DNA of 64,000 nt from Picrophilus oshimae DSM 9789 (lineage in GTDB: Archaea > Thermoplasmatota > Thermoplasmata > Thermoplasmatales > Thermoplasmataceae): positions 124,001 through 188,000 of the forward strand of contig NZ_FWYE01000003.1 of assembly GCF_900176435.1 (NCBI RefSeq), in the 5' to 3' direction. Position numbers and translations under genes: made by a program. This document shows positions 41,317-45,303 of this stretch, in pieces (positions within the stretch are counted from its first letter, which is position 1; every line of letters starts with the position of its first letter). Below the pieces are notes generated by a model. The model ran no database searches. It saw only the letters and a program-made list of their open reading frames with translations, and was not told the DNA's origin.

Positions 41317-42351
41317 ATGACTGACGAGGTTCCAGAGAAGAGAAATAAACATCCATATATAATGTATGATATGATAAGGGATATACCAAATGGAATATCA
41401 AAGACCATTGATGTTATGGAATCAATGGATTATTCATTCTTAAATGCACCTTTGATAATGACCGGTAATGGAACTGCATATCATGCAGGATATCTTGGCA
41501 TGCAGTTTCTAAAAAAGACAAACTATCATTTTGATTTTATCCAGGCCTATGAGCTTTTAAATTATTACATCCCTGATGGAACTGTAATAGGCATATCGCA
41601 TACAGGAAAAACAAAGAGTACAGTGGATGCAATAGAATTTTCAAAGAGGTATTCATATACCGTTGGAATAACACATTACATGGATTCACCACTATACAAA
41701 ATATCAAATAAACCGGTATTCATTGATTCAGTTGATAAATCACTTTGCAATACAAAGGCATTCTTTGATAATGCATTTGCATCACTTTACATTGCAATGA
41801 ATTATTCCGGAATATACTTTGATGTAAAGGATATTAAAAATGATATAATAGATGTTATAAATAAAAAGGAAAAGGAAATCTCTGAGTTAACATCAAAATT
41901 ATCGCATATAAATAATGTCTTTGTGCTTGGTGCAGGGCCAAATTACATAGCTGCAAGGGAGGCTGCACAGAAGATTAAGGAGGCAACGCATTTACATGCG
42001 GAGGGCATAGAGCTTGAGGAATTCAATCATGGATGCACCTCGGTAATAGACGAGAACTCACTTTTGATAATAATAAATAACAAAACCGTAAATAAGAGGA
42101 CAGAAGATATCGTAAGGGCATGCAAGGTTCTTGGAACAAAAACCATTGTTATCCGTGGCGATGGTGATTTTTCAATAGACCTAAACGAGTCAAATGATGA
42201 GTACATTGAACCATTTACAAACATGGCAGTGCTTTATTACATTGCATATTACCTTGCACTGGCAAAAAAGGTAAATCCTGATCTATTAAGATTTGACGAA
42301 AAAAAATATCGTGAATTTGATGATATAATATTCCCACCAGGCGCACACTAA
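41317..42351 (+). CDS. SIS-domain sugar phosphate isomerase/deaminase (GlmS isomerase-like)
   Basis: This 344-residue protein has two SIS domains and corresponds to the isomerase half of glucosamine-6-phosphate synthase, without the N-terminal glutaminase. Domain 1 (about residues 30-165) has T-G-N-G-T-A-Y-H-A-G and I-G-I-S-H-T-G-K-T-K-S-T; domain 2 (from 200) has L-G-A-G-P-N-Y-I-A-A-R-E-A and H-A-E-G-I-E-L-E-E-F-N-H-G. The typical GlmS C-terminal Lys-containing tail is not obvious. Archaeal proteins of this kind include glucosamine-6-phosphate deaminases, so an amino-sugar role is likely. Confidence 0.8.
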   Translation: MTDEVPEKRNKHPYIMYDMIRDIPNGISKTIDVMESMDYSFLNAPLIMTGNGTAYHAGYLGMQFLKKTNYHFDFIQAYELLNYYIPDGTVIGISHTGKTKSTVDAIEFSKRYSYTVGITHYMDSPLYKISNKPVFIDSVDKSLCNTKAFFDNAFASLYIAMNYSGIYFDVKDIKNDIIDVINKKEKEISELTSKLSHINNVFVLGAGPNYIAAREAAQKIKEATHLHAEGIELEEFNHGCTSVIDENSLLIIINNKTVNKRTEDIVRACKVLGTKTIVIRGDGDFSIDLNESNDEYIEPFTNMAVLYYIAYYLALAKKVNPDLLRFDEKKYREFDDIIFPPGAH

Positions 42352-42394: not shown

Positions 42395-43819
42395 ATGAAC
42401 ATAGAGGAAATGCTTTTATATGAGATTAAATATGGAAGATTTTCAAATTTTATGATAAACAATGAATTTTATAACATTAGTGATCCATCGTATCTTGATA
42501 TTGATATAAAAAGCCTTCTGTCAAAACTTGAGTCATCAGGTTATATAATTAAAAGTGCTGAAAGGCCTGTATTAAAATGTAATTATTGTGGAAACGATAG
42601 GTTTTTCGCTATTCCATACTGCAATGAGCATGGAATGCCAATGGAGCTAAAGGACAATAAAATTATATGCCCTGTTACGGGAGATATTGAGGCATACAAA
42701 TTGATGGATATATGCTCATCATGCATGAAATTAAACGAATCCATGAAATCAATGGAAATCTCTGAAAGTTATAAATTAACTGAAAAAAAGAATTTTATGG
42801 TTGAACTTTTACATGATGCCATTTCAATATTAAATGAATATAATCTAAAATATGAAATTGGTGGAAAAATATCCGGAATAAAAACGGAGCATGTTTTTAA
42901 TATAATAATAAAAAAGGATTTTTCATATCTTATAGATATATATTATGGAGGAGATGTAAAGGTCATAACAGAGCATCATTATTCAATACCGGATGATGTA
43001 CCTGGATCTTACACCGTTGTTTTTAACATAGATGAAAATAACTCCGAATTTGAAATTCCAGGGATAAAATACATAAAGTCTGTTAATTATGAGGAATTTT
43101 TAAGCAATTTTAAAAAATTCGTACTTGATATAGTAAATAATAAATCATTCATGTTTGGCATACCTGCACTTGATAATCTTATAAAAACAGGCTTAAAAAT
43201 AAATAATGTATATGGCTTTGAAACATTTTCATCAGGCAATATATCATATTTTCTCGTCAGGTTTCTTATCTACGGTGCCGAGAACGCTGAGCCAGGAATT
43301 TACATAACAACCAGGAACTCACCTGATTATATTATAAGAAATGCAAGATCATATAATATAGATCTTGAAAAATACATAGATTCAAAAAACATAGCAATCA
43401 TGGATTTAAACTCAACAATAGAAAAAATAGATCTTGGATCTGATTATTACAAGCTTTCCGGACACATCTCTGATATTCTCAATGAAATATCAAAGGCAGT
43501 AAAAAAGTACGGTGCAAGGAGGCTTGTTATAGACTCAATAGAGCCGCTGGAGCTTGGTCAGAACCAGAATATAATAAGATACCTCTTCAACGGTTTAAGG
43601 AAGCTGGACTGTGTTATTGTAGCAACAAAATACATAGATAATATAGATTCGCATCCTATAGAGGACATGTACTTTTCAGGTATAGGCGTTATGGGAACAA
43701 TGATAACAAACGGTCAGCTGCACGAGATATTTATATTAAAAAAATCCGGTGAATTTATTCCAGGCAAAAAGGTATTTGATGTTGAAATTGACAGCAATGG
43801 TGAGTTTGTATTTAGATGA
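42395..43819 (+). CDS. Zn-finger protein with degenerate KaiC-like ATPase domain
   Basis: This 474-residue protein has two parts. Residues 62-110 form a Cys/His module: C62-x2-C65, C76-x2-H79, C92 and C107-x2-C110, resembling the TackOD1 metal-binding output domain. Residues 250-470 match the KaiC/RecA fold: G-I-P-A-L-D-N-L-I, G-I-Y-I-T-T-R-N, Walker B R-R-L-V-I-D-S-I. The Walker A region at 274-283 reads G-F-E-T-F-S-S-G-N-I and lacks the P-loop Lys, so ATP hydrolysis is doubtful. It overlaps the next gene, a membrane glycosyltransferase, by ATGA. A regulatory role toward the glycosyltransferase is inferred. Confidence 0.75.
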   Translation: MNIEEMLLYEIKYGRFSNFMINNEFYNISDPSYLDIDIKSLLSKLESSGYIIKSAERPVLKCNYCGNDRFFAIPYCNEHGMPMELKDNKIICPVTGDIEAYKLMDICSSCMKLNESMKSMEISESYKLTEKKNFMVELLHDAISILNEYNLKYEIGGKISGIKTEHVFNIIIKKDFSYLIDIYYGGDVKVITEHHYSIPDDVPGSYTVVFNIDENNSEFEIPGIKYIKSVNYEEFLSNFKKFVLDIVNNKSFMFGIPALDNLIKTGLKINNVYGFETFSSGNISYFLVRFLIYGAENAEPGIYITTRNSPDYIIRNARSYNIDLEKYIDSKNIAIMDLNSTIEKIDLGSDYYKLSGHISDILNEISKAVKKYGARRLVIDSIEPLELGQNQNIIRYLFNGLRKLDCVIVATKYIDNIDSHPIEDMYFSGIGVMGTMITNGQLHEIFILKKSGEFIPGKKVFDVEIDSNGEFVFR

Positions 43820-45303
43820 ATATGAACCCAAAATTACTGTATTTTATATCAATAATCGCAATAATACTTTATTTATATTTTTTAATAATATCATTGATTA
43901 AGTTTGATGAAACATATATCGAAAAATTTCTCAGTCTTCTGCTTATAATTATAAATGCCTTTTTTATAATACATTCAATAGAATATCTTCATTATTACAT
44001 AAATGCAAGGACATTCTATGAAAAAAGCACCTATAAATATTTTAATACATACTTTAATTTTGAAACTGCAGTATTTATAGCAAGCTATAATGAATCAGAA
44101 ACCGTTCTTGAAGACACATTAATAGCCTGCATTAACATGTCAAAACAGGCAAATGGTATTGTATATGTTCTTGATGATTCAACAGATATTAAAAAGGCAA
44201 AAGCAATAAAGGATCTATGCATGAGATACAGTGTAAATTATATACATAGAGATAATCGAAGGGGATACAAGGCAGGGGCATTGAACGACGCATTGAAATT
44301 TATAAATACAAAATATTTTGCAGTATTCGATGCGGATCAAAGGCCGATGGAGAATTTTTTGAATGAACTGATACCAGTTCTTGAGGATGATGAGAACATT
44401 GCATTGATACAGGTGCCACAGATATATGATAATAATAACACACCTGTTGCAAGAGGCGCAAATGACATACAGATGGTATTTTATACTTTTATAACAGAGG
44501 GAAAAAGCCTTGAAAACAGCATGTTTTCATGCGGTTCAAATGTAATATACAGGACAGAATCGATAAAAAGCATTGGCGGCTTTGTTGAAACAAATATAAC
44601 AGAGGACATGGCCACAACAATAAAACTCCATGAACGTGGATATAAAACAATATATTATAATCTGCCACTGGTAAGAGGTGAGGCCCCTGAAACATTGAAT
44701 GCGTATTTTATACAGCAGTCAAGGTGGTCCCAGGGCTCTATATCCCTTTTTTATGGTATTTTAAAAAGTATTTTTTCAAGGAACGGAATGAATTACAGGC
44801 AGAAAATAGGGTATTTTGTAACAACCTCCTGGTATTTTATAGGCGTTGTTAATATAATAATGCTCTTGTTTCCATTGCTTTTTATATTTTTTAATGTTAT
44901 TTCTTTAATAACACCGGAAATATACATATTTGTGCTCGCATTTTATATAATATTTGAATTCTTTGTCTTCACCGCAACGGTATATGAAAAAACAAAATCG
45001 ATAATACCTGTGCTGAGAAATATATCATTAACCTTTATAACATCACCAGTATTTGTAAAATCTGCCTTTTATGCATTTATTAATAAAAGGACTTCATTTA
45101 AGGTCACGCCCAAAGGAGATTCATCGAAAATACCGTTTTCAGGATTAAAGGCACAATATGCAATAATGTTTATAAGCGCCGCGGGATTTGCATACGCCAT
45201 TTACAGATATATAATATCAGGAAACATGGAATTCATTTTCAATGGTGCATTTATGCTGTACTTTTTATTATTATCCATGTCCATTTTTTATTATAATAGA
45301 TGA
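43816..45303 (+). CDS. Membrane GT2 glycosyltransferase, cellulose-synthase-like
   Basis: This is a 495-residue polytopic enzyme. Two N-terminal membrane segments (about residues 6-26 and 38-58) precede the catalytic domain with I-A-S-Y-N-E-S-E (residues 88-95), D-D at 120-121, D-A-D at 172-174, T-E-D at 262-264 and Q-Q-S-R-W at 300-304, the D, DxD, D and QxxRW motifs of processive family 2 transferases. Four to five membrane segments follow. No PilZ domain is present. It likely makes and exports a beta-linked polysaccharide or glycolipid. It is translated with the KaiC-like gene. Confidence 0.9.
   Translation: MNMNPKLLYFISIIAIILYLYFLIISLIKFDETYIEKFLSLLLIIINAFFIIHSIEYLHYYINARTFYEKSTYKYFNTYFNFETAVFIASYNESETVLEDTLIACINMSKQANGIVYVLDDSTDIKKAKAIKDLCMRYSVNYIHRDNRRGYKAGALNDALKFINTKYFAVFDADQRPMENFLNELIPVLEDDENIALIQVPQIYDNNNTPVARGANDIQMVFYTFITEGKSLENSMFSCGSNVIYRTESIKSIGGFVETNITEDMATTIKLHERGYKTIYYNLPLVRGEAPETLNAYFIQQSRWSQGSISLFYGILKSIFSRNGMNYRQKIGYFVTTSWYFIGVVNIIMLLFPLLFIFFNVISLITPEIYIFVLAFYIIFEFFVFTATVYEKTKSIIPVLRNISLTFITSPVFVKSAFYAFINKRTSFKVTPKGDSSKIPFSGLKAQYAIMFISAAGFAYAIYRYIISGNMEFIFNGAFMLYFLLLSMSIFYYNR

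Follow-up and report, generated by a model that had tools for sequence, protein, structure and literature searches.

Inactivated copies of KaiC ('iKaiC'), such as MEDS, are mentioned as a part of archaeal KaiC-like signalling in PMC5847659, with reference to Makarova et al. 2017. TackOD1 is presented in PMC5847659 as an output domain found in response regulators, among them proteins with the architecture REC-wHTH-TackOD1, and is defined there by 11 conserved cysteines in five CxxC motifs plus an HxxC. The same work reported TackOD1 near pilus genes in Thaumarchaeota, as well as fusions of a receiver domain with a glycosyltransferase (REC-GT) in Methanobacteriaceae (MTH_548). In a survey of Thermoplasmatales from acid mines, genes for cellulose or cell-wall polysaccharides were scored as absent, Ferroplasma included (PMC3750248).

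Here we describe a pair of overlapping genes in Picrophilus oshimae DSM 9789 that, like MTH_548, ties an archaeal signalling domain to a BcsA-like glycosyltransferase; MTH_548 is a receiver-domain fusion, whereas the glycosyltransferase of the present pair is the separate partner of a KaiC protein. This protein, iKaiC, carries its KaiC fold within a multidomain protein, as do the archaeal KaiC-like signalling proteins, but it differs from the described inactivated KaiCs in having a TackOD1-like N-terminus fused to it and in being tied to a family 2 (GT2) synthase. No published KaiC-glycosyltransferase pair was found in our literature search; Makarova et al. 2017 (mBio) lay outside that search and may hold an earlier mention.

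Results

The window analysed here is a stretch of 64,000 nucleotides with a GC content of about 36%, from a genome of 1.53 Mb in six contigs (G000). The family relatives of the host include Ferroplasma acidarmanus Fer1 (G026) and Acidiplasma aeolicum VT (G035); G010 denotes what is probably Ferroplasma acidiphilum and G093 the MAG WH1.bin9. All features given below for the window lie on the + strand. The first gene of the pair (42395..43819) encodes iKaiC, of 474 residues, and the second (43816..45303) a BcsA-like processive GT2 membrane glycosyltransferase (hereafter GT) of 495 residues without PilZ. The two open reading frames share an ATGA start-stop overlap (43816..43819), which had been noticed in the first-pass annotation and which favours coupled, probably stoichiometric translation. 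By the ORF list and profile matches, a SIS-domain sugar-phosphate protein (GlmD/GlmS-like; 41317..42351) is encoded 43 bp 5' of iKaiC on the same strand; this gene is a putative operon member and could hint at an amino-sugar substrate for the GT. Downstream lies an unrelated CoaBC gene, and the flanks of the pair differ between genera.

Residues 250-474 of iKaiC (43142..43816) had been read as a KaiC/RecA fold, and both sequence and structure bear this out: the Pfam KaiC family PF06745 matches residues 255-413 (E 2.3e-21), and Foldseek places the domain of the AF2 model on KaiC CI with a TM score of ~0.75-0.86 (by target length), so that Pfam, AF2 and Foldseek agree on a RecA-type fold of the KaiC superfamily. 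The solved structures nearest to iKaiC are KaiC proteins and SSO2452, and a Foldseek comparison with viral proteins gave generic RecA/helicase matches only. The model has a pLDDT of 75.5 overall, being weak before residue 60 and confident in the KaiC domain. The MEDS model reached E 0.02 against iKaiC, below the MEDS cut-off.

The P-loop does lack its lysine, as the earlier reading had it. Compared column by column, the region GFETFSSGNIS stands where the paralogues have GKAGTGKT, and the dead P-loop TFSSGNIS (residues 277-284; 43223..43246) aligns with the G-x4-GK[T/S] of KaiC and paralogues. At the position of the catalytic acids, where KaiC has Glu-Glu and the paralogues still show one acid, usually as TDT, alignments give R307-N308 in iKaiC (43313..43318); a Walker-B-like RLVIDS (residues 376-381; 43520..43537) is kept, and with it the Walker-B Asp D380. 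The same losses were found in the Ferroplasma orthologue (TFSSGNTL at the P-loop, RY at the acidic pair), in which the string ETFSSGN is identical to that of the window protein, so that the Walker-A Lys and the catalytic acidic pair, the two marks of an active KaiC-like ATPase, are missing from both intact copies compared. As the P-loop Lys, the glycine pattern and the catalytic acids have all gone, it is questionable whether iKaiC binds ATP in the canonical way, and the proposal of a nucleotide-sensing but non-hydrolysing KaiC is not supported.

Despite these losses, the dead domain is maintained by selection, because between the two Ferroplasma orthologues synonymous changes in it outnumber nonsynonymous ones by 27 to 6 (dN/dS 0.048); the ratio between these species is 0.20 in the N-terminal half of iKaiC, 0.11 in the active KaiC and 0.06 in the GT. 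The F. acidarmanus Fer1 pair (L044:6838-9827), with a nonsense codon in iKaiC and with stops and a short duplication in the GT gene, is by its sequence a recent pseudogene pair. In A. aeolicum the iKaiC gene is broken and the GT gene intact, which indicates that a GT can persist, for some time at least, after its partner is lost. The window and G010 each hold intact versions of both genes; some lineages can do without the system, and in others, that of the window among them, it is intact.

Three parts can be distinguished in the N-terminal half of iKaiC. A wHTH-like stretch (residues 36-58; 42500..42568), modelled by AF2 with low confidence and matched to TackOD1 proteins by hhalign with P between 4e-8 and 6e-9, is followed by a four-Cys zinc ribbon (residues 60-112; 42572..42730), in whose model short beta strands surround the cysteines, and by an alpha-beta-beta-beta-alpha-beta domain (residues 123-248; 42761..43138) with a restriction-endonuclease-like topology and no nuclease motif. 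The first-pass annotation had listed seven metal ligands (C62, C65, C76, H79, C92, C107 and C110). Of these, the Ferroplasma and Acidiplasma orthologues retain C62, C65, C107 and C110 only, which leaves one zinc ribbon of four cysteines and rules out a seven-ligand cluster. For the third part, hereafter the middle domain, assignment to the restriction endonucleases was considered; as the topology was joined only by a single Mrr_cat hint (E 0.06) and the PDB held no sequence match, the domain is called restriction-endonuclease-like only.

A resemblance of the zinc module to TackOD1 had also been noted, and it survives as a remote relation. The Pfam TackOD1 model PF18551 did not match iKaiC, which rules out direct membership at the Pfam level. 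By hhalign, residues 1-250 nevertheless matched whole TackOD1 proteins, taken from other archaea, in a colinear alignment spanning residues 25-248 (probability 97.8, P 9.5e-13), with P 5.6e-9 for the zinc part alone and P 1.7e-5 for the middle part alone; these are single-comparison values, and the iKaiC profiles were built from two to four sequences. Reversed and column-shuffled control profiles gave P 0.03 or worse throughout. The match, set against these controls, indicates that the lead was real, and the N-terminal half of iKaiC is, as judged by profile comparison, remotely related to TackOD1. The accompanying statement that TackOD1 is known from archaeal KaiC-like signalling needs correction, the domain having been described from two-component response regulators instead (PMC5847659). 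The TackOD1 proteins and iKaiC have in common a colinear wHTH-like stretch, a CxxC zinc ribbon and a C-terminal alpha/beta domain, and some TackOD1 genes adjoin GT2 genes as iKaiC does; unlike those proteins, iKaiC has 4 conserved cysteines rather than 11, is fused to KaiC and falls under Pfam detection.

The alpha/beta domain of the TackOD1 proteins lies past the Pfam model and is of the same kind as the middle domain of iKaiC (hhalign P 1e-5). It lies in the residues after about 190, carries a GxSGxxHxF motif and is unnamed and outside Pfam. The N-terminal domain of the active KaiCs described below also matched it (hhalign P 2e-13). The middle domain of iKaiC and the N-terminus of the active KaiCs therefore each match the TackOD1 C-terminal domain, and their direct comparison was not significant (P 0.02).

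Around TackOD1 genes themselves, a GT2 gene directly adjoined TackOD1 at 6 of the 20 loci inspected (L201, L209, L212, L213, L214 and L216), its identity being confirmed by Pfam at three of the six. The association is suggestive only, as five of these six loci probably represent one lineage. Most of these neighbours in other archaea stand tail to tail. Pilus-looking genes adjoined TackOD1 at no fewer than 4 of the 20 loci (at least four).

Profile matches and alignment with BcsA agree with the earlier identification of the second gene as a processive GT2. The GT aligns with E. coli BcsA over residues 85-474 (E 9e-37) and ends at the point where BcsA runs on into PilZ. It shares with BcsA the full set of GT2 catalytic motifs, namely DAD (DxD, substrate; residues 172-174; 44329..44337), TED (catalytic base; residues 262-264; 44599..44607) and QQSRW (QxxRW; residues 300-304; 44713..44727), and also the FxVTxK gating-loop motif of the cellulose synthase, here FKVTPK (residues 428-433; 45097..45114), which aligned with FNVTAK of BcsA. 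It differs from BcsA in having no PilZ and in remaining under the cut-off of the CelA equivalog (233.6 bits against 699). No PilZ or GGDEF domain was found in the five family genomes searched, whereas the control genomes gave matches. As polysaccharide genes of the cellulose or cell-wall kind were scored absent from acid-mine Thermoplasmatales (PMC3750248), the synthase seems to have been overlooked there. The GTs paired with a dead KaiC group in a single, fully supported clade and have the motif FxVTxK; those of the active Thermoplasmatales pairs have FxTART.

The two genes are kept together. Across 117 genomes of the order, all but one of the 23 closest GT genes have a KaiC-like gene directly 5' on the same strand; a GT of UBA567 has no KaiC neighbour. 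Loss of the neighbourhood in related genomes, which would have spoken against a coupled pair, was thus not what the comparison found, and this adjacency strongly supports the reading of the two genes as a functional pair. Most of the 22 pairs are of a second type, with an intact P-loop and genes of the Ta1207 family (PF19020; PDB 5m86) on one or both sides. Such a pair is present in the genome of the window itself (contig C4, 66.8-69.4 kb), where it adjoins a Ta1207-family gene (G000 C4:66809-70314; L060:4810-8314), and every sampled genome with a dead pair also carries an active one. The window pair shares with the Ta1207-KaiC-GT-Ta1207 operon the order KaiC then GT on one strand, but no Ta1207 gene was found among the window ORFs or at the orthologue loci L043 to L046 and L048. 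In another family of the order, KaiC and Ta1207 occur without this GT. The Ta1207 model matched Ta1207 itself alone and so gave no functional clue. In the KaiC tree, iKaiC occupies its own long branch and is not joined with the active partner KaiCs, which suggests that the two pairings may have arisen separately.

Most of the genomes compared in this work are species representatives or MAGs. When the scan was widened to 84,980 species genomes, a KaiC with the P-loop GECGTGKT was also found adjoining this GT, here with FxVTxK, in a groundwater MAG of Chloroflexi (L090), a pair known from a single short MAG contig; its neighbours are an NTP-transferase and a phosphorylase-like gene. No KaiC match lay within 6 kb of any of 54 more distant GT loci (L112-L165). 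One active-type partner KaiC (L108:5124-5975) has a shortened N-terminus and Leu for the Walker-A Lys (GRPGTGLS); it comes from a low-coverage MAG and could reflect either another inactivation or an error. Beside several of the GTs, a weakly predicted beta-helix or pectate-lyase-like protein is encoded (L061:3363-4358, L056:6950-7870, L052:3675-4598 and L051:3544-4470), possibly a polymer-processing enzyme.

Discussion

The explanation that we favour, at roughly even chances of being right, is that the pair consists of a pseudo-ATPase adaptor and a PilZ-less polysaccharide synthase under its control, the adaptor doing the job of PilZ and c-di-GMP in bacteria. The window pair would then be a variant of a KaiC-glycosyltransferase module, in which the BcsA-type GT would polymerize and export a surface polysaccharide, and iKaiC would serve it as a cytosolic adaptor in place of the PilZ and c-di-GMP of bacterial BcsA. 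The N-terminus, as a remote and trimmed TackOD1, would sense or dock something, and the dead KaiC domain, by itself or in mixed assemblies with the active paralogue, would offer a surface for assembly and interaction through which the activity of the GT is set. That relatives of iKaiC and of the GT travel together suggests that iKaiC controls the timing of surface polymer synthesis. A role at the protein level is supported by the gene order and overlap, by the lack of other known GT regulators and by the selection on the dead domain. The physical contact between iKaiC and the GT, the direction of control and the product are inferred. Against this reading stand the intact GT beside a broken iKaiC in A. 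aeolicum, the UBA567 GT that lacks a KaiC neighbour, and the separate place of iKaiC in the KaiC tree. The first-pass description of the pair as regulated polysaccharide synthesis would fit.

The zinc ribbon and the wHTH-like stretch leave room for a transcriptional role, in which iKaiC would bind the promoters of its own operon or of other surface genes, linking it to the GT through transcription, and its KaiC domain would merely oligomerize. The response-regulator origin of TackOD1, REC-wHTH-TackOD1 included (PMC5847659), and an hhalign match that spans the wHTH-like stretch speak for such a DNA-binding regulator. However, the active partner KaiCs pair with GTs equally tightly without a wHTH or a zinc ribbon, and the gene overlap points to coupled translation; we therefore consider this role unlikely, though worth keeping in mind. 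The active paralogue also leaves room for mixed rings, which iKaiC would tune as a subunit, the adjacent GT being one of several targets. The confidently predicted KaiC fold and the co-occurrence of an active partner KaiC in every sampled genome are consistent with this, but the two kinds of KaiC domain are only ~24 percent identical and iKaiC keeps a GT partner to itself, which speaks for a separate complex and makes mixed rings the more doubtful proposal.

The damage in both F. acidarmanus Fer1 genes and in A. aeolicum iKaiC could suggest a decaying relic without present function; this is improbable for the window pair, given that both genes are intact there and in G010, that dN/dS is low both for the dead KaiC domain (0.05) and for the GT (0.06), and that the pseudo-P-loop motif is identical across genera. 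That the two genes are functionally unrelated neighbours, as the unrelated CoaBC and the varying flanks might allow, is most unlikely, since the adjacency persists despite differing flanks and recurs in the paralogous pair and in the Chloroflexi MAG.

Returning to the pseudo-ATPase adaptor, we can more tentatively propose, as a possibility short of an even chance, that KaiC partners, rather than c-di-GMP and PilZ, control BcsA-type synthases in archaea and in one bacterium or more, and that one branch lost the ATPase activity but retained the protein, fused to a TackOD1-type module, as a gate of fixed state. To our knowledge, no function is known for TackOD1; if the proposal is true, TackOD1 would be a regulator of, or a dock for, surface-building machines such as GT2 synthases and type IV pili. 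Archaeal KaiCs, for their part, have been proposed to act as signalling hubs, and few of their outputs are known. As the conserved operon joins a KaiC and a TackOD1-like module to an enzyme whose product can be measured, it would permit a direct test of each.
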